IMG/VR virus record: IMGVR_UViG_3300023174_005002
Coordinates: 1 to 22,817 of that record
Length of the DNA: 22,817 nucleotides
Strand: one strand, 5' to 3'
DNA from: a virus
Shown: one piece after another, positions 3,999 through 22,817 of the stretch
Position numbering within the stretch: the first letter of the stretch is position 1
Layout of the letters: each line of letters starts with the position of its first letter
Notes under the pieces: model-generated
The model's input: the letters and a program-made list of their open reading frames with translations, nothing else
Database searches by the model: none
What the model was told of the DNA's origin: nothing
Made by a program: the position numbers and the translations under genes

Positions 3999-4040
3999 TC
4001 ACCCAATAAGCTTAAATGATTTACCGATAGAACGTGTGCT
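3999..4040 (-). pseudogene. Orphaned 3' end of dnaE (scar)
   Basis: Directly after the TAG of the endonuclease gene, one frame reads S-T-R-S-I-G-K-S-F-K-L-I-G-stop. The intact DnaE at 4920 ends S-I-R-N-I-N-K-S-M-K-L-I-G-stop. Nine of 13 residues are identical and both end at the same residue, yet most shared codons differ in DNA (for example AAG CTT ATT GGG here versus AAA TTG ATT GGA in the intact gene). The remnant has no start codon of its own. It is best explained as the original dnaE terminus left behind by the insertion or replacement event that placed the endonuclease gene here. Confidence 0.75.
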
Positions 4041-4869
4041 AGATTTTATAAAAAGTAAAATTTTTACATTTTCTTTTTTCATTAAAGCACTTTCTGAATG
4101 TTGAAGAATGTATTTTATTATCCTTCAAAAATTGTTTTAGATTATAAATTTGATATTCTTTACCATCTTCATCTATAGCTTTATATTTTAAATTATATTT
4201 AGAATTTTTATTATAATTAAAACTTTTAAATTTAGAATATTTTCTTTTTAAATACAACTCAGTTTTTTCGACATCCTTATAAATCCATTCTAATATTTTA
4301 ATAGCATTAAACCCGGAATAATCAAGATGATAAGTCATATTATTTTTTGATTTAATCTTATAAAATGTTCCAGCAGATTTTTGTAAATCAACAATATTGA
4401 ATTTTACAAATACTTGTTTAATTGCTTCTAGAAACTTTTCACCACCAGTAAAAATTATTTTTATAATATTTTTATTACTAATAACTACACTGCCATCACC
4501 ATCAAAAAAACCTAATATAAATTTTCTAATATATTTTTCTGGTATATCAGGAAAATTTACGATAGATGATTTTCTTTCCATTCCTCCTAAATTAATAATA
4601 TCATGATAGATTTCTTGAGAATATATTCTTAAATAACTTTTAGGATATTTTGATTTTTTTTCTTCTTTAACAGGTCCATTAAAATCAATTGCTTTTTTAA
4701 TAGATTCTAATATATATTTGTCTTTTGTTGATTGTGTTATTCCAAAAGTTTTGGAAGAATTTGTCTTATTATTTTTTGTTATATGCCCATCAGCAAACCA
4801 AAATCCTAAAACATATGCCATTTCATCAGACCAAATTTTAAAAAAATCTTTATTATATTTATACTTCAT
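4039..4869 (-). CDS. LAGLIDADG homing endonuclease (3' side of dnaE)
   Basis: A 276-residue free-standing endonuclease that would cut an allele of a neighbouring gene lacking the insertion. Two LAGLIDADG helices are visible: YVLGFWFADG (20-29) and FILGFFDGDG (117-126). Each ends in the acidic residue that coordinates catalytic metal, so one chain forms both half-sites. The C-terminal 60 residues (from YKAIDEDGKEYQIYNLKQFL) resemble the small DNA-binding NUMOD-type modules attached to such enzymes. Base composition is more AT-rich than dnaE. The gene lies 50 bases after the dnaE stop, and its own TAG abuts the orphaned dnaE tail. AGGAG precedes the ATG within a hairpin loop. Confidence 0.93.
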   Translation of the reverse strand: MKYKYNKDFFKIWSDEMAYVLGFWFADGHITKNNKTNSSKTFGITQSTKDKYILESIKKAIDFNGPVKEEKKSKYPKSYLRIYSQEIYHDIINLGGMERKSSIVNFPDIPEKYIRKFILGFFDGDGSVVISNKNIIKIIFTGGEKFLEAIKQVFVKFNIVDLQKSAGTFYKIKSKNNMTYHLDYSGFNAIKILEWIYKDVEKTELYLKRKYSKFKSFNYNKNSKYNLKYKAIDEDGKEYQIYNLKQFLKDNKIHSSTFRKCFNEKRKCKNFTFYKI

Positions 4870-4892: not shown

Positions 4893-4919
4893 GTAACTAT
4901 TATGCGAATATATAACACT

Positions 4920-7900: not shown

Positions 7901-8339
7901 AAAGATTATTCAGACCTTTCTGATTTTGTGCGAGAAGGACGAGATGAGAACGCCGATTGAGGATACTCTTTTTAGTCTTCTTTGTCTCTTCTTCGTTCTC
8001 AACAATCGCTCCTGTGATCTCCTCGTCCTCTTTCTTTGCTTTTGTTGTTTTTTCAATTTCTTCCTTATCTTTCCGCCAAGCAGCAATAGAAGGATGAAAA
8101 TACATTTCACAGCCATAGATCCCTTTGATCTGGCGTCCTTCTTTAATCATCTTCTTGATATGGATAACTTGCCCCGCTAAAGCATTCATATTGCCATGAT
8201 CCGTGATTGCAAATGCATCCAATCCATTTTCATAGGCAAAATCTAAATGTTCATCAGGCATACCAAGCCCATCATGGATACTATATCCAGTATGCGAATG
8301 AAGACCTACGAACTTGATTTTAGAAATCTTACGTTCCAT
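4920..8339 (-). CDS. dnaE: DNA polymerase III alpha subunit (DnaE type) with intact PHP domain
   Basis: A 1139-residue replicative polymerase, close to the 1160 residues of E. coli DnaE. The PHP domain (about 8-270) keeps all nine candidate metal ligands: His14, His16, Asp23, His48, Glu78, His132, Cys183, Asp257 and His259. A 3'-5' proofreading activity in the same chain is therefore likely. A Lys/Glu-rich insert spans about 90-125. The Pol III core has GPGRGSAAG (424-432), palm aspartates Asp468 and Asp470 in PDIDYD, SRHAGGIVV (584-592) and Asp631 in KFDVLGL. RPGPL, a YGYLVFQEQ segment and GYGFNKSHA follow, then a helix-hairpin-helix (IKGVGDAAI) and a C-terminal OB-like region. Its ATG lies inside the last codons of the upstream endonuclease gene, with GGAG eleven bases before. 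Both gene ends are duplicated outside the flanking endonuclease genes. Confidence 0.97.
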   Translation of the reverse strand: MERKISKIKFVGLHSHTGYSIHDGLGMPDEHLDFAYENGLDAFAITDHGNMNALAGQVIHIKKMIKEGRQIKGIYGCEMYFHPSIAAWRKDKEEIEKTTKAKKEDEEITGAIVENEEETKKTKKSILNRRSHLVLLAQNQKGLNNLFTLISKSFSDENYYRFPRIDYQMLKEYNEGIIASSACLGGVYATDFWENWENGEDAVLNAMRETSRKMIDVFGDRWYGEVQWNGILEQHKLNKLVIRVCQEFGIKVISTGDSHYPTPGAWKDREIYKKLGFLGNGKVIDTTLPDHIDDMEYTLYPKNGDEMWQAYKKYSAKCGVNYNDDFVLKTIEETWDIAFNRIESFIPDNTVRLPNFILPEGKTAEETLDQLAETGLRDMKKWSNKEYHDRLLRELDVIKDRGFAKYFLTMKAISDRANESYITGPGRGSAAGALVSYVLGITQVDPIKYGLQFERFLSKTATDYPDIDYDVSDAMGLKQNLIDEWGKNNVVPITNWNTLQLRSLIKDISKFYGVDFQEVNAVTNKMLLEATPLAKAEHGITAGIYTPTFEEVMKYSQSLQTFLTTYPHIKTHIEQLHGSIRSASRHAGGIVVGENLDQWMPLINSKGVRQTPWAEGQNVRHLEPMGFIKFDVLGLETLNMMEKAIQHIVRRHKGVKSPTFSDVKEFYMKNLHPDVLDMSDKNVYENIFHAGKWAGIFQFTESRAQNFCQKVKPNNIVDISSITSIFRPGPLSAGVDKSFAESKHNPDDVVYEHQLIKEATSETYGYLVFQEQIALLAHKLGRDISLDEGNSLRKVLTKKGTGKEAEVKEKLHDKFINGCVDKGLGEKVGEKLWQKFIYFSGYGFNKSHAVSYSIISFQCAWLYNYYPSEWLAAYLDSQPDSKKEKAVNIVKAAGYNVQGVDINKSGKVWEISEDGKTLIQPLSAIKGVGDAAIKEIVDHRPFKTIEEFLFHPRVSYSKLNKKNVDALCRSEALLSLMDSRFTGGKHFWSAVAVDRPRKPDNLVENIKTYAAEGDFTRDEKILNTLELTGVYPINMIVSEEVQRKLAEKMVPPLGEYDQELGICWFIPKSLEKKTTKNGKHYLIVEAIDETNIVTKIKCWSYDPKKDVIHLNHPYVSRVEYSEEWGFSIRNINKSMKLIG

Positions 8340-9117
8340 TCATTAAACTCCATTTTCTTTCTAATTTAGGTATTTTATAATCTTTTATTCTATTAAAAAT
8401 ACTTGTAAAAGTTTTGCCATTAAAACAAAGTTTGTAAATATTACCATGCTTCTGTATTTTTGGAAGAACAATATTTAATTCTTTTTCAAGAACTTCTTTA
8501 AACCAGAGCATCATTTTCTCTGTGCCCAATATAGCAGAATTTATATATTGATATTTATCCTTATTTATAGTTTTATAAATTGTCCCATCACCATCTAAGT
8601 AACCAACAAAAAAAGACAATATTAAATCTATGTCGTTTAATTTAGGTGGTTGAAGAATTAAAGATTTTTTTGGTATTATGTTAAAATTTTTCCTTAAATC
8701 TTCATATATCTTACGAGAACTTATCGATAAAACTGCAGCACCAGAATAATTTTTGATATCACCAGAATATTCAATATCTCGTTTTAGTTTATTTAAATGT
8801 TCCTTATCTCCCATTTGCAAACAAATATAAGTTCTATAGTCTCTTTCTCTTACATTTCCGTCAGCCGCTAAAAAGCCAGCCCAATAACAATTTAAAACAT
8901 TTGGAGTTTCAAAAAAATTCTCATTTATATTATATCGTCTTTTGTGGGATAGCTTGTTTTTTCCAATACCTCTTTTATTATATAAAGATAATTTTCTAAC
9001 CTGATTAACGACAGATTCAACTGTTCTTTCTAATTTAGAAGAAATTTCTTTATAAGATATTATTTCATAATTTTCTTTTAGATAATTATTTTCTTGTTCC
9101 GTCCATCTTTTTCCCAT
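8329..9117 (-). CDS. LAGLIDADG homing endonuclease (5' side of dnaE) with HTH N-terminus
   Basis: A 262-residue endonuclease. Residues 1-45 (KRWTEQENNYLKENY, then a second and third helix ending VVNQVRKL) look like a Myb/SANT-type helix-turn-helix for DNA binding. Two LAGLIDADG helices follow: WAGFLAADG (79-87) and FFVGYLDGDG (169-178). The catalytic acidic positions are present, so the protein looks intact. It is only distantly similar to the endonuclease on the other side of dnaE. Its TAA lies 11 bases inside dnaE, the last residues NGT sharing bases with the dnaE start. AGGAGA precedes the ATG inside a hairpin loop. Confidence 0.92.
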   Translation of the reverse strand: MGKRWTEQENNYLKENYEIISYKEISSKLERTVESVVNQVRKLSLYNKRGIGKNKLSHKRRYNINENFFETPNVLNCYWAGFLAADGNVRERDYRTYICLQMGDKEHLNKLKRDIEYSGDIKNYSGAAVLSISSRKIYEDLRKNFNIIPKKSLILQPPKLNDIDLILSFFVGYLDGDGTIYKTINKDKYQYINSAILGTEKMMLWFKEVLEKELNIVLPKIQKHGNIYKLCFNGKTFTSIFNRIKDYKIPKLERKWSLMNGT

Positions 9118-9178: not shown

Positions 9179-9463
9179 TTAACTAATCACTTCACAATCA
9201 ACTTCATCTTCATAGAAATAGTATTCTTTTCCATCAACTTGCGAATACCAAATATAGCCATTATCGTTTTCAGTTGAACCTTTCTTGAAAATATGACTAT
9301 GTTTTTCAACTTTGGTGATGATGCCAAATGTATTTTTAAGGCGAAGGAGAAGGGGGAGGCGAAGGCGAAGGTGAAGGCGAAGGCGAAGGCGAGGGCGAGG
9401 GTTAGGGCGAGGGTGAGGGTGAATATCTTTTAAAAGAACAAGATCACCAACTTGGTATTTCAT
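9179..9463 (-). CDS. Small SH3/KOW-like protein with a hexamer-repeat insertion
   Basis: A 94-residue protein. The outer parts (MKYQVGDLVLLKD and NTFGIITKVEKHSHIF, then a YYFYEDEVD end) look like a compact beta-barrel of the type found in many short phage proteins. Residues 15-43 are instead a run of alternating His/Arg/Leu and Pro/Leu encoded by about 14 copies of a degenerate hexamer. The reading frame is kept because the unit is six bases. The first 23 bases are almost identical to the start of the gene at 9733, so these two genes probably derive from one another. The ribosome site AGGTGA is created at the junction with the orphaned dnaE start. Function unknown; whether the repeat-bearing protein folds is uncertain. 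Confidence 0.65.
   Translation of the reverse strand: MKYQVGDLVLLKDIHPHPRPNPRPRLRLRLHLRLRLPLLLRLKNTFGIITKVEKHSHIFKKGSTENDNGYIWYSQVDGKEYYFYEDEVDCEVIS
9338..9421 (-). repeat. Degenerate hexanucleotide tandem repeat, about 14 units
   Basis: On the plus strand, 14 consecutive six-base units of the form AAGGCG, AAGGTG, AGGGCG, AGGGTG and one AGGGTT fill 84 bases. They split into an AAGG-type block followed by an AGGG-type block. The tract is strongly strand-asymmetric (G/A versus C/T) and GC-rich against AT-rich surroundings. It lies in frame inside a small gene. Confidence 0.9.
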
Positions 9464-12231: not shown

Positions 12232-12915
12232 TCACGACTTTCTTACTTCATTATAAGCACCCATAGTCTCTGGAAAAAGTTGCTGAATTATTTTTAACAT
12301 AGCATTAGCAACTTGAACTATTTCCCATTGTGCTCCTTCGTGAGAACGTAATTCAATAAACTTGAGAATATTATTCAAATTTGCTGAAGCATAGTATTCC
12401 GTATAAAGATTTTGTGGCAATACTCCTCTTGCTTGCTCACGACAAACTCCAGATTCCATTAATTTATTATAGATCTCTAGACTTTGTTGGTGATGTTCTG
12501 AAATGAGCTGATTAGCATCTTTACCGTCAATAACTGGATTAATTAGTTCATTTTCGTTACTTGCTTGACGATTGTTTTTGTGTTGTGTACGAAATTGGTT
12601 TGGTTGATAAAATTCCATTTTTTCAGCAGTATAGCGACGAGAAATTTCGTTATATGACCAAGTGCGATGGCGGTGATGCTGTGAACGAATAAATAATGGA
12701 ACCTTTACACGAAAGGTTACAAAACAATGTTCTAGCGTTGATGTATGTTTGTGTTTAATAAGATAACGAATCAGTTTCCTATCTTTATCATTAAGTTCTT
12801 CTTGATGAAGGCCAAAGCTTACACGCGCACTATTGACAATCGTTAGATCATTTCCAACACTATCAACTAATTCTACTTTACCAATACTATCACCATACAG
12901 TTCAATGCTTTTCAT
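12232..12915 (-). CDS. thyX: Flavin-dependent thymidylate synthase ThyX
   Basis: A 227-residue enzyme making dTMP from dUMP with FAD, NADPH and methylene-tetrahydrofolate. The ThyX signature R-H-R-x7-S is present as Arg82-His83-Arg84 to Ser92 (RHRTWSYNEIS). Other family segments are visible, including STLEHCFVTFRVKVPLFIRSQ, EYYASANLNNILKFIELR and a final AMLKIIQQLFPE. Length is normal for the family, so the gene looks intact. GGAG lies eight bases before the ATG, inside the end of the upstream endonuclease gene, and the two genes overlap by 14 bases. Together with dUTPase and the B12-dependent reductase it gives the phage a folate-sparing route to thymidine nucleotides. Confidence 0.97.
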   Translation of the reverse strand: MKSIELYGDSIGKVELVDSVGNDLTIVNSARVSFGLHQEELNDKDRKLIRYLIKHKHTSTLEHCFVTFRVKVPLFIRSQHHRHRTWSYNEISRRYTAEKMEFYQPNQFRTQHKNNRQASNENELINPVIDGKDANQLISEHHQQSLEIYNKLMESGVCREQARGVLPQNLYTEYYASANLNNILKFIELRSHEGAQWEIVQVANAMLKIIQQLFPETMGAYNEVRKS

Positions 12916-13423
12916 GATTGTTCTCCATTTTATTCACAAGCTTTTTCATCCAAGTATATAATTTTTCTATCTCTTGTAAGGAAGCGTCATTTTTTATTCT
13001 ATTTGCTTTGTATGAAATACAAACGACATTATCTTTTGTATATCCCTTTTTAGAATCGATTCTATCAATAGAAGGCGAATTGTCAGCAGCAATTCCACAG
13101 GATTTTTCCAGAACAATTCCAAGAACTGGACATATTTCTGGTATTTTTATGTCTTCAATAGTTAAATTGAATTCTAAATTTGAATTTTTAGCACGACTTC
13201 TTGCTCTTGATAGAATGGCTTTTTCTATATTATTATTGCGCCATTTTGCTGTTTTATCACTATGATATTTTTTAAATTCTTCGCTTTCTCTTGATTTATA
13301 AGTTTGTCTGGCTGTTTCATTATAACATTCTATACATATAGAACGTTTATGATTCTTGCTGTCGCCTCTTGAATAAAAATCTTCTAGTTCTTTTTCTTTT
13401 TTACAGCGGCGACACTTCTTCAT
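12902..13423 (-). CDS. HNH-type (homing) endonuclease with N-terminal zinc ribbon
   Basis: A 173-residue putative endonuclease. Residues 4-33 carry a C-R-R-C ... C-I-E-C zinc knuckle with the DFYSR element typical of phage endonuclease zinc ribbons. The C-terminal half has CPVLGIVLE, then PSIDRIDSKKGYTKDN, V-V-C-I-S and N-R-I-K-N-D. This is the 'S-x-D-R-I-D-x-x-x-G-Y-x-x-x-N-V' core of a large group of phage HNH-like nucleases. It shares this core with the protein at 20086. Its reading frame ends within thyX, much as the LAGLIDADG gene ends within dnaE. It is probably a free-standing homing endonuclease targeting the thyX neighbourhood. Confidence 0.8.
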   Translation of the reverse strand: MKKCRRCKKEKELEDFYSRGDSKNHKRSICIECYNETARQTYKSRESEEFKKYHSDKTAKWRNNNIEKAILSRARSRAKNSNLEFNLTIEDIKIPEICPVLGIVLEKSCGIAADNSPSIDRIDSKKGYTKDNVVCISYKANRIKNDASLQEIEKLYTWMKKLVNKMENNHEKH

Positions 13424-19426: not shown

Positions 19427-19455
19427 GGAAAGCGCCCCATGATCGGGACGCTTCC
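19427..19455 (-). promoter_or_regulatory. Strong GC-rich leader hairpin
   Basis: On the minus strand GGAAGCGTCCC pairs with GGGGCGCTTTCC around a 5-6 base loop, with one bulged T and one G-T pair. It is followed by TTTAGGAG, the next gene's ribosome site. It lies between the HNH endonuclease gene and a run of small genes. The placement resembles the hairpin at 13679. Weak terminator or RNA processing/stability element. Confidence 0.6.
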
Positions 19456-19480: not shown

Positions 19481-20086
19481 TCAAGTGCCATTCAAGCAGG
19501 CATGTTTTTCAACCTTTTTAATATTATATTCCGTTACTAACTTACACATTTGTATAAAATATTCTTCATCAAACTTGTTTTTCATTATATTTAAATCTTT
19601 TAAAATCCACTGGATATTTTCTTTACAATATGCTTTTTTACTGTCAATTCTATCAATAGAGGCTTTTTCTATAGTCATAGATGTTCCGGTTAAAGCACAA
19701 ATTCCTTTTTGTTCTTTCCATTTATTATCACAATCTTCAATTGTAATTTTAAAATCAATATTTCTCAATCTTGCGCCTGTTTTTATGTGTGTAAAATAGC
19801 TTGAACTAATTTCTCCAAAACCCTTCCAATTAGAATTTTTATCTTTATCAGTATTCTTCATAGAACACTTAAAACATTTTTTAGTTATTCCATTTTCTAA
19901 TTGGTAACAATCAACTAACTTTTCTTGCTCGCATAAAATACAAACACAGAGATATTTTAATCTATGTCTGTCTTTTGTATTTGAACTTGGAGTTTGAACT
20001 CTTTTACAAATATTATCTAATAATTTCCAATTTCCAAATAAATGTCCTATTTCATATTTTTTATCATATCTTGAAAATTTACCCAT
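19481..20086 (-). CDS. HNH-type homing endonuclease (behind nrdJ)
   Basis: A 201-residue endonuclease. The N-terminal part (YEIGHLFGNWKLLDNI) resembles the strand-rich DNA-binding opening of phage HNH/AP2-type proteins. It is followed by a four-cysteine knuckle (C-V-C-I-L-C ... C-F-K-C). The nuclease core is CALTGTSM, SIDRIDSKKAYCKEN, IQWILKDLN and MKN, the same S-x-D-R-I-D-S-K-K-x-Y motif as the protein at 13423, so the two are distant paralogues. It lies 75 bases behind the reductase stop. Its initiation site is locked in a long inverted repeat, and its last codons may incorporate a scar of the nrdJ 3' end. Confidence 0.85.
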   Translation of the reverse strand: MGKFSRYDKKYEIGHLFGNWKLLDNICKRVQTPSSNTKDRHRLKYLCVCILCEQEKLVDCYQLENGITKKCFKCSMKNTDKDKNSNWKGFGEISSSYFTHIKTGARLRNIDFKITIEDCDNKWKEQKGICALTGTSMTIEKASIDRIDSKKAYCKENIQWILKDLNIMKNKFDEEYFIQMCKLVTEYNIKKVEKHACLNGT

Positions 20087-20146
20087 TTTAGTACCCCTAA
20101 TTTAAATAGTCTCCTATCTTCAAAAGGCGGTACTAAAATGGATAAA
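20078..20146 (-). promoter_or_regulatory. 18-base inverted repeat sequestering the endonuclease start
   Basis: The arms at 20129-20146 and 20078-20095 pair over 18 positions (TTTATCCATTTTAGTACC with GGTACTAAAATGGGTAAA on the minus strand). The only non-Watson-Crick position is U-G. The downstream arm contains the ATG and the last bases of its AGGGG ribosome site, so both are hidden when folded. The 33-base loop contains another AGGAG. T4-type endonucleases such as I-TevI are known to be kept silent by a comparable stem-loop until a late promoter within it is used. Confidence 0.8.
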
Positions 20147-20161
20147 CGTTATTTGAGGATT

Positions 20162-22231
20162 TTATCTGATTTCACAAGCTCCATTGCTACAAGCAACCTC
20201 GCCAGACAAATTGGTATAATCCTGATCTTCTCTTACCATATCTATATCAACATCTACTAATTGATCCATTCTTTGTTTATATTCAGCTTCACCTATATCC
20301 TGGAATGGGGCCTGATGATAAGTGTGGTTAGATAAAGGTAGAAGTGAAATAGCAGCATAACTGTCTTTATTTTTCCACATCCAGTCAGTAACTTCTCCCC
20401 ACTCACCGTCACGAACAGAAACAGTAATAGAAACATTGTGTGTATTGTCTCCACGACGATGACCACCTTGAATCCAATCAAGATATACTTTTTTCATACG
20501 TTCAAGCTGTTCAAGAGCACTTTCTTTTCTTGTAATAGCTCCTTCTGGTGCTCGCTGTGGTAATACAAGAATTCCATTGTTCTTATTGAATACATCGTCT
20601 TCAAGAAGTTCTGGGTGGAACATTTTGAGATAACCATACATTGTTTCTGTCTTTAGAAGGCGCATACGGCGTAAATAGAACTCATTATGCCATGCATGAA
20701 TACCTGATGAACAACCTAGAACACAAGAAGTTGTACCACTTGGTTTTACAGTTGTAACACGGGCTGCTTTATTTACACCAACAAGTTTAGCAACTCTTTC
20801 GTTTTCTTTTGTTGCCGCTTCTGCTGCTGCAGCCATATCAAGTGCTAATACTTTTCCACTTGCAATACCGGTCATACCAATACCAAGTAGAGCTTCTTTT
20901 TCTGTTGTTTTACGCCAAACATCACGAAGATAATGGAAATCAGTATAAGAAGCTTGTAGTGTTCCAATGAACGCTGCAGCTTTTACACGATCTTCATAAT
21001 CTTTTTGATCTGTAATGTCTGAAGCATTGATTTCACAAAGATTACAGAATTGGTTTGTTCTCAAACCAATTTCACCACATGGATTTGTACCCCAATCTGG
21101 ATTATTTGTCCAGAAAATACCTGGCTCACCAGCTTTGCTTTCTTCTGTGATTTTAAGAATACGTTCAAAGTCTTTCTTGTTTCTCATCTTGTGACGGACG
21201 ATAACAACACTATTATTGGCACGACCACGCTGTTCTTGAACATAAAACCATGGAACAATACCGTTATCTAAAAAGAATGGAATATCATGTTCGCCAACAT
21301 CAGCCTCAACTGTGCGAATACCATAAGCTGGGTCATTGTAGGCTATTTTAAGGCGTTTATAAGTGGTGTTTGTAGCCTCATCTACTGTACGGACTTCAAG
21401 CTTAACTTCATTACCAAATTGATCGCGCTTTGTGAGCGTAACGGGTTCATAACTTGATACTTTAAAGTTACTCTTGCATGTAAGCATTGCTTCATCATCA
21501 ATATCAAATAGTGAAATCATTGCTGAACGACGAATACCACCTGCAAGGACAGCATCAGCTAAATGACAAAGAATGTCATGAATCTGGACTGAACGTAACT
21601 GTTCTCCACTTTCTACACTATCAAGAATACCACGTACATTATCTAATGAACGCTTTAATGGTTCTGGACCTGGAGCTTTACCACCACCAGTTTTGATTGG
21701 TGTTCCTTTGGCACGAATTGATGAATAATCAAAACGAATCTTTGGTGAATTTGGCTGCATGTATGATTTCATCAATACTTTTACAGCATCAGCCCAACCT
21801 TCAATACTATCGCCAACAAGGAATTTCTTTTCACCTTTTGATGGTTTTGTTACTGGAGGAAGTTTTTCAATATGCTTTTTCTGTACTGAATAACCTACAC
21901 CACAACCGGCAAGCAATAGGAACATAGTTTCACTAAAACTATGAACACTATCAATATGTTGGAAAGAACAGTTATAAATACGTGAGTTGTTTACTTCAAT
22001 CGCTTTTCCACCGAATTGCATTGAACGCATTGATGGAAGAACTTTTTTATCATAAACAAACTTATACGCTTCTTCAATCTGATCCTTTAGATCAGGGAAT
22101 TTAGCAATATGCATTGCTTTGTTGCGATCAACAAGTTCAACCCAATTCTCACGACGACCAAGTTTCTCATCAAACTTTGCATATCGTGAAAATACTGTTA
22201 CATCTGATAATATTTTGCTTGCTTTGTCCAT
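20162..22231 (-). CDS. nrdJ: Class II (adenosylcobalamin-dependent) ribonucleotide reductase
   Basis: A 689-residue single-chain reductase converting ribonucleotides to deoxyribonucleotides using B12. It resembles the monomeric L. leichmannii enzyme (739 residues). Key residues are visible: Cys88 in IYNCSF, the radical cysteine Cys385 and Glu387 in NPCGE, and Cys396 eleven residues later (FCNLCE), matching Cys119, Cys408, Glu410 and Cys419 of that enzyme. The C-terminal shuttle pair is C-S-N-G-A-C before EIR. Between TCKS (about 252) and QRGRANNSV (about 334) there is a roughly 75-residue beta-rich insertion where related enzymes have a short link. Start taken at the second ATG, seven bases after GGGAG. 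The helicase stop overlaps the first ATG. Confidence 0.95.
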   Translation of the reverse strand: MDKASKILSDVTVFSRYAKFDEKLGRRENWVELVDRNKAMHIAKFPDLKDQIEEAYKFVYDKKVLPSMRSMQFGGKAIEVNNSRIYNCSFQHIDSVHSFSETMFLLLAGCGVGYSVQKKHIEKLPPVTKPSKGEKKFLVGDSIEGWADAVKVLMKSYMQPNSPKIRFDYSSIRAKGTPIKTGGGKAPGPEPLKRSLDNVRGILDSVESGEQLRSVQIHDILCHLADAVLAGGIRRSAMISLFDIDDEAMLTCKSNFKVSSYEPVTLTKRDQFGNEVKLEVRTVDEATNTTYKRLKIAYNDPAYGIRTVEADVGEHDIPFFLDNGIVPWFYVQEQRGRANNSVVIVRHKMRNKKDFERILKITEESKAGEPGIFWTNNPDWGTNPCGEIGLRTNQFCNLCEINASDITDQKDYEDRVKAAAFIGTLQASYTDFHYLRDVWRKTTEKEALLGIGMTGIASGKVLALDMAAAAEAATKENERVAKLVGVNKAARVTTVKPSGTTSCVLGCSSGIHAWHNEFYLRRMRLLKTETMYGYLKMFHPELLEDDVFNKNNGILVLPQRAPEGAITRKESALEQLERMKKVYLDWIQGGHRRGDNTHNVSITVSVRDGEWGEVTDWMWKNKDSYAAISLLPLSNHTYHQAPFQDIGEAEYKQRMDQLVDVDIDMVREDQDYTNLSGEVACSNGACEIR

Positions 22232-22233
22232 AA

Positions 22234-22817
22234 TCATTCTCCCTTTAGTTCTTTCTTTTCTTTTCTATGTATGGCATACTTTTCTTTTAGTTTCTTGGCT
22301 TGATCAGCAGCAGCGTTTTTATTGATTTCATCAACAGTTTCATTTGTTGGTTCCATCACTTTGATTGCAACATTTGATGTATCCATGAATATCGGTAAAA
22401 CAACTCCATCTGGTCCATTTCTATTCTTTGCTATAAAAATACGACCGGTATTATTCTGTTTATGAGTTGCAGTTCTGGAAAGGCTGAAAATAAAGTCAGC
22501 AACGAAACACTTATTAAAAGCTTCACTAATACTTTCCATAGTAACTACTTCTGCGTTCAGACCTGAACGGTTTGTTTGTGATGCTGTCCAGAGAGGACAC
22601 TTGAGTTCAGCAGCAATTCCGCGCAATTCTTCATAGATGCCTTCAAGTTCATTTCGCTTCTCTCTCTGGGCTGTTACTGGTTTTAACAAGTCACCATAAT
22701 CAACGACGACCATATCCACCTTAAAATCTCTTTGTTCAAGTTTCTTAAGGTGGTTTCTCAACGTTTCCGTTGATACTGTCTTGGTCGGGTATTCTTTAAT
22801 TATAAGCTTGCCGGGAA
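22234..22817 (-). CDS. DnaB-type replicative helicase, C-terminal part (5' end outside window)
   Basis: The frame is open to the window edge, so this is a partial gene of at least 194 codons. The segment PGKLIIKEYPTKTVSTETLR leads into the RecA-fold Walker B strand VDMVVVDYGDLL. This is followed by ELEGIYEELRGIAAELKCPLW and TASQTNRSG (sensor region), then RIFIAKNRNGPDGVVLP, the 'K-N-R-x-G' element of hexameric DnaB/T4 gp41 helicases. The extreme C-terminus is Lys/Glu-rich. It would unwind duplex DNA ahead of the DnaE-type polymerase. Its stop overlaps the nrdJ start region as ATGA. Walker A lies outside the window. Confidence 0.9.
   Translation of the reverse strand, partial: PGKLIIKEYPTKTVSTETLRNHLKKLEQRDFKVDMVVVDYGDLLKPVTAQREKRNELEGIYEELRGIAAELKCPLWTASQTNRSGLNAEVVTMESISEAFNKCFVADFIFSLSRTATHKQNNTGRIFIAKNRNGPDGVVLPIFMDTSNVAIKVMEPTNETVDEINKNAAADQAKKLKEKYAIHRKEKKELKGE

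Follow-up and report, generated by a model that had tools for sequence, protein, structure and literature searches.

A start-codon hairpin with a promoter-like loop in an HNH endonuclease cassette at the end of a phage nrdJ gene: a proposed late-expression switch

Regulation by a hairpin combined with a late promoter has been reported for the T4 homing endonucleases I-TevI, I-TevII, I-TevIII and SegB, as well as for MobE of phage Aeh1 (PMC2988022, PMC3014915). In the three I-Tev leaders the Shine-Dalgarno (SD) sequence and the AUG lie in a stem only on the long early or middle RNA; the late RNA is devoid of one arm (PMC2988022). The box of the T4 late promoter is TATAAATA (PMC2988020, PMC3037559). 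T4 segB, a gene for a free-standing endonuclease, has a late promoter and a structure predicted to sequester the SD (PMC2988022, PMC3014915), and mobE of Aeromonas phage Aeh1 encodes an HNH endonuclease inside nrdA, its ribosome site being sequestered by a hairpin (reviewed in PMC2988022).

The locus described here lies in a window of 22,817 nucleotides (the whole stretch of DNA analysed, IMG/VR record IMGVR_UViG_3300023174_005002). The original prediction had drawn the parallel with the T4 intron endonucleases; the principle fits, but the free-standing MobE and SegB are the closer cases. Like mobE, the window gene is a free-standing HNH gene in a ribonucleotide reductase gene, with its ribosome site in a hairpin and a late promoter arrangement, which is here predicted. 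Unlike mobE, it is found near the stop codon of a class II nrdJ, which remains one gene, it belongs to an endonuclease-VII-like HNH family, and it is accompanied by a CTATTTA box as opposed to the Aeh1/T4 late promoter. The free-standing endonuclease, the predicted SD-sequestering structure and the late promoter (again a prediction here) are shared with segB, whereas the latter is of the GIY-YIG family and is located in a tRNA region. As in the I-TevI, I-TevII and I-TevIII leaders, the SD and AUG are placed in a stem on the long RNA, and the promoter is predicted to be so positioned that the late RNA misses one arm; those genes, however, are borne by group I introns and have TATAAATA as their promoter box, while the window gene is free-standing and shows no operator-like similarity. 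For T4 gene 49 (endonuclease VII), too, regulation depends on a long structured RNA as against a short late one. Its product and that of the window gene belong to a common broad nuclease group (PHROG 1035 match), but the former is a resident Holliday-junction nuclease and is not mobile. The principle is already known; the host gene, the promoter, the nuclease family and the recurrence with unrelated stems are new.

The nrdJ cassette and its hairpin

The features of the locus are as follows (all on the minus strand):

20162..22237, minus: nrdJ, class II ribonucleotide reductase, 691 aa (PHROG 367, E 2e-131)
19487..20172, minus: inserted element of ~686 bp, comprising the new nrdJ end, the hairpin leader and the HNH gene (from the empty sites in sister phages)
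19481..20086, minus: HNH/endonuclease-VII-like gene, 201 aa (PHROG 3322/1035/3118, A1 alignment, empty-site comparison)
20129..20147, minus: hairpin 5' arm (repeat search and fold)
20077..20095, minus: hairpin 3' arm, which includes the ATG (repeat search and fold)
20094..20098, minus: Shine-Dalgarno AGGGG, within the base-paired stem and inner extension (fold)
20102..20110, minus: ACTATTTAA in the loop, putative promoter element of the phage lineage (from the positions of ACTATTTA in sisters)
20111..20115, minus: additional AGGAG of the loop, ~25 nt upstream of the ATG (sequence)
20096 +/- few nt, minus: predicted late transcript start (analogy with T4 TATA-box spacing; RNA model)
19430..19455, minus: GC-rich hairpin downstream of the insert, kept in empty-site sisters

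A protein search with NrdJ yielded close phage contigs (L001-L008, 88-94% protein identity), and the 3' ends of nrdJ from L001, L002, L004, L007 and L008 were aligned with that of the window. The nrdJ ends of L001-L005, L007 and L008 are empty: they terminate with VVT or VVA, and immediately beyond the stop comes the gene found behind the endonuclease in the window. The window nrdJ reads ...GACEIR and a stop, followed by the hairpin and then the HNH gene; its last three codons (EIR) and the stop come from the insert, such that three codons were lost and three others gained. The insert replaces ~5 nt of the ancestral nrdJ end (TGTG|TTGTG|ACTTGA), with junctions that were set by eye on the alignment and are therefore good only to a few bases. 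The endonuclease gene has taken over its last codon and stop (ACT TGA) from the ancestral nrdJ, and its start is positioned 75 nt past the nrdJ stop on the same strand. Since the close sisters do not carry the insert and the repeat lies within it, the hairpin arrived together with the endonuclease.

The endonuclease protein matches PHROG 3322 (endonuclease; E 3e-17), 1035 (endonuclease VII) and 3118 (HNH), and residues D145 R146, N157, Q159-W160 and N166 are invariant in the A1 alignment. To judge from the present and absent sites and from the family match with its conserved motif, the product is a free-standing homing endonuclease, which presumably cuts the HNH-free nrdJ allele. A group I intron was rejected, given the lack of an Rfam match and the presence of only ~80 nt outside the open reading frame, and an intein was rejected as the nrdJ frame stops before the insert gene. 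A single-sequence search of IMG/VR revealed no close relatives of the endonuclease protein, but an alignment search did find relatives (see below).

The inverted repeat consists of two arms of 18 nt (20078-20095 and 20129-20146) that are 94% complementary and spaced by 33 nt, the sole mismatch being a U-G wobble when the minus strand is read as RNA, i.e., in the direction of both nrdJ and the endonuclease gene. It had originally been claimed that such a repeat of 18 positions with one wobble is beyond chance, and the repeat search, the fold and the shuffles all bear this out. With up to one mismatch allowed, the longest inverted repeat of the window measures 18 nt, compared to 11-16 nt in 25 dinucleotide shuffles of the whole window. 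RNA folding of the 5' region, proposed at that time as a check, gives a strong hairpin: the minus-strand fold of positions 20076-20148 has an energy of -34.8 kcal/mol (z -8.4; shuffled mean -11.7; 0 of 200 shuffles as stable), and the hairpin is the lowest-energy 75-nt segment when both strands of the whole window are scanned. The stem comprises 19 bp (20129-20147 paired with 20077-20095) with an inner extension (20125-20127 with 20096-20098). The start codon and the ribosome site were indeed located in the stem, the ATG at 20086-20084 and the AGGGG both falling in the paired 3' arm, and the loop contains TATTTAAAT as well as the extra AGGAG (20115-20111), again as originally described. This second AGGAG is not common to the relatives and is probably not a ribosome site for the endonuclease gene. 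No second copy of the inverted repeat occurs elsewhere in the same viral record, and none of the 11 pattern matches to the exact hairpin in IMG/VR precedes a relative of the endonuclease gene.

We consider it quite probable that the hairpin is a translational lock on the HNH cassette at the nrdJ end, and that a late promoter in its loop frees the endonuclease late. Read-through RNA from nrdJ, presumably early or middle, would possess both arms, fold, and hide the SD and AUG. Late in infection, a promoter of the CTATTTA type in the loop would start an RNA downstream of the 5' arm, which could not form the stem and would be translated. With the read-through RNA locked and the late RNA open, the endonuclease would thus be made only late. 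In the modelled read-through RNA, 88% of the SD-to-AUG stretch is paired, compared to 27% in a modelled RNA starting 12 nt after the TATTTA start; in box-bearing nrdJ-linked relatives the modelled pairing drops in the same direction, with smaller changes in L100, L102 and L137. Of the AGGGG ribosome site, an RNA with the predicted start would keep no more than GGG, a weak point of the model; the true transcript start may be situated 1-3 nt further upstream.

Recurrence of the layout in HNH relatives

The alignment search returned 80 HNH relatives, many of them directly behind an nrdJ that is only 30-60% identical to that of the window. A hairpin that buries the SD and the start (defined by z<-2 and paired >0.7) was identified in 14 of the 80 and in 5 of 437 neighbouring genes (p 1e-8), where at least one of the five positive control genes is a homing endonuclease gene of the window itself. 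TATTTA is present in the leaders of 20 of 79 relatives versus 15 of 427 neighbours (p 4e-9). Leaders with z<-2 were more frequent among nrdJ-linked HNH genes (24/36) than among genes following an HNH-free nrdJ (12/52), but the set of 36 was partly gathered from hairpin-bearing seeds and its rate is biased upwards; the fair comparison is therefore 14/80 versus 5/437. The leader of L126 (CTACATTTCACAACC...ACTATTTAG...GGAGGTTGTGAAATG) serves as an example, and further nrdJ-linked cases are L100/L228, L104/L108, L235, L250 and L252.

Between groups the stems have no common sequence, while the ribosome site or AUG is always in the 3' arm and the box is usually in the loop. The original suggestion of searching for the same repeat before homologous endonucleases was therefore borne out in part: the exact sequence was not found, but the architecture recurs with unrelated stems. 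The same layout being built from unrelated sequences, the arrangement looks selected and not accidental. Compensatory conservation in homologues, on which the original prediction was to stand or fall, takes the form of the same architecture on different stems, and the changes between the stems of close pairs, few in number, mostly preserve pairing. Among the 28 pairs of the L126/L243 stems, six are changed (two of them doubly) and none is broken, and sliding the stem partners halves the pairing; covariation within close groups, which rests on few events, does not beat a shuffle control (114/500), although slid controls score lower.

The stem might alternatively be mainly a processing or stability element, such as an RNase III site parting the nrdJ and endonuclease mRNAs, with only incidental occlusion of the start. 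A stem of ~22 bp suffices for RNase III and is located here between two co-directional genes, but the relatives keep the SD/AUG in the 3' arm and TATTTA in the loop, neither of which is needed for processing alone, and a third of the nrdJ-linked HNH genes have no strong stem at all; we thus regard this explanation as unlikely.

Hairpin leaders also came to light among HNH genes in other settings. The HNH relatives of Streptomyces phages Patelgo (L084) and LukeCage (L085), which follow a gene for a Ro-like RNA-binding protein, have a start-codon hairpin. In L090 (4788-4840), an HNH protein of another family has a GGTACTAAAATG hairpin leader, which emerged from the pattern search and is probably due to chance.

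The loop box in sister phages

In a search without preset motifs for 8-mers enriched upstream of genes, performed on three sister contigs and the window, the top 8-mer was ACTATTTA, an exact copy of which sits in the hairpin loop. Upstream positions were defined as 10-50 nt before a gene in the sense direction, with gene starts taken from simple script calls and not from curated annotation. By this measure, all 10 copies in the first three sister contigs are upstream versus 3% expected (p 8e-16; both strands, 168 kb, sisters only, the window being excluded). In two sister contigs outside the discovery set the proportion is 5 of 7, giving 15 of 17 for all five, and the unrelated control phages G012 and G017 show no enrichment of the 8-mer. 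The genes that follow ACTATTTA in the sisters code for tail sheath, head-tail adaptor, tail/baseplate-like and scaffold-like proteins, and a variant, ATATTTATA, precedes the endolysin gene. In the related, cultured Microcystis phage Mel-JY01, whose genome is complete (PP395634), upstream positions are enriched in TATTTAT (20/219, p 1e-6). The motif is located there ahead of the genes for the large terminase and the tail tube, of the tail-sheath operon and of further genes in the structural blocks; the two long non-structural blocks, at 62-92.8 kb and 98-154 kb, have none.

These positions suggest that CTATTTAT is the late -10 box of the phage lineage, different from the TATAAATA of T4. The T4 box is not enriched, with at most one upstream site per contig, and a T4-type late promoter was rejected for the lineage, ACTATTTA/TATTTAT being enriched in its place. 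Neither a match to gp55 (PHROG 234) nor a Sigma70_r2 protein was found in Mel-JY01 or in the sister contigs G001-G005, the latter being fragments. The T4-type switch that was originally envisaged is accordingly supported by comparison, through the recurrent layout, the promoter-like box and the RNA models, except that its promoter is not TATAAATA.

A reading as unlikely as the RNase III one is that the hairpin blocks translation but is released by a trans factor or by slow refolding, with TATTTA as a mere AT-rich loop. AT-rich loops are to be expected in a genome of 34% GC, but the loop contains the exact 8-mer ACTATTTA, which in the sisters occurs almost only at promoter positions, and TATTTA before HNH starts exceeds expectation (20/79 observed versus 4.7 in shuffled leaders). 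Very improbable is a repeat with no RNA role, one that arose as a side effect of insertion or replication (for instance when the start region was duplicated in inverted orientation) or that serves the endonuclease as a binding site on DNA: although the repeat is wholly within the insert and T4 I-TevI, I-TevII and I-TevIII have operator sites near their starts (PMC2988022), the leader bears no similarity to the empty target site above that of shuffles, no second copy exists in the record nor a related one in IMG/VR, and the architecture is repeated in relatives with different sequences. An autorepressor of the I-TevI type was likewise rejected, the leader having no operator that resembles the homing site.

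Boxes and start hairpins were also observed at other endonuclease genes. A LAGLIDADG gene of the window (4039-4869, minus strand), behind a DnaE-like gene, has a ACTATTTATA box at 4893 (minus strand) followed by AGGAG, and only a weak start hairpin despite its own box. In an HNH-free sister phage, the start of a GIY-YIG gene (G005:17013-17786, plus strand) is preceded at 22 nt by a CTATTTATA box; the CTATTTAT boxes of these two genes are 22-24 nt ahead of the starts. The DnaE-like gene is flanked on its opposite side by a second LAGLIDADG gene (8329-9117, minus strand) with a moderate start-codon hairpin (ACATTTC...GAAATGT), which is kept in an 84% identical ortholog in a sister phage (G003, 5282-6067, minus strand). 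The start hairpin of the window endonuclease gene at 12902-13423 is weak, and the short open reading frame at 9179-9463 (minus strand) contains a low-complexity run, HPHPRPNPRPRLRLRLHLRLRLPLLLRL.

Possible tail replacement and spread of the cassette

The NrdJ tail is copied at the C termini of several nrdJ-linked HNH proteins (GGAGGCEIK in L126, GGACEIK in L243, AGGACEIA in L103 and TAGVCEIVDLNAA in L120), and the HNH frames of these four look fused to the displaced old NrdJ tail. In L234 (2501-3260) and L235 (2380-3845), a displaced nrdJ 3' end of ~45 codons is located behind the HNH gene, and the contig of L235/L249 (IMGVR_UViG_3300026183_000028) contains, after the displaced nrdJ end, another HNH cassette whose own hairpin bears a box. 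The simplest reading of these arrangements is that the cassette carries a replacement tail and moves the old nrdJ tail to its far side, where in the window only the last codon and the stop are left of it. The evidence leaves evenly balanced a broader proposal, whereby cassettes at the nrdJ tail would be widespread in phages with a late promoter that is not of the T4 type (CTATTTAT), the replacement tail keeping the enzyme while the old tail is displaced, and hairpins with a loop promoter would have evolved independently, limiting the endonuclease to late infection.

The hairpin switch of T4 has so far been discussed from a handful of related Escherichia coli and Aeromonas phages. The present analysis suggests the same switch logic in uncultured phages, with a different late promoter, a different endonuclease family and many unrelated stems. 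Its recurrence with unrelated stems speaks for strong selection, acting repeatedly, to have the endonuclease made only late, and is so frequent that a general rule for homing endonucleases of phages suggests itself. The analysis also yields a candidate late promoter that can be tested in a large phage lineage, of which Mel-JY01 is a cultured member, together with a concrete model in which an essential gene is invaded by a selfish one and yet is not broken.
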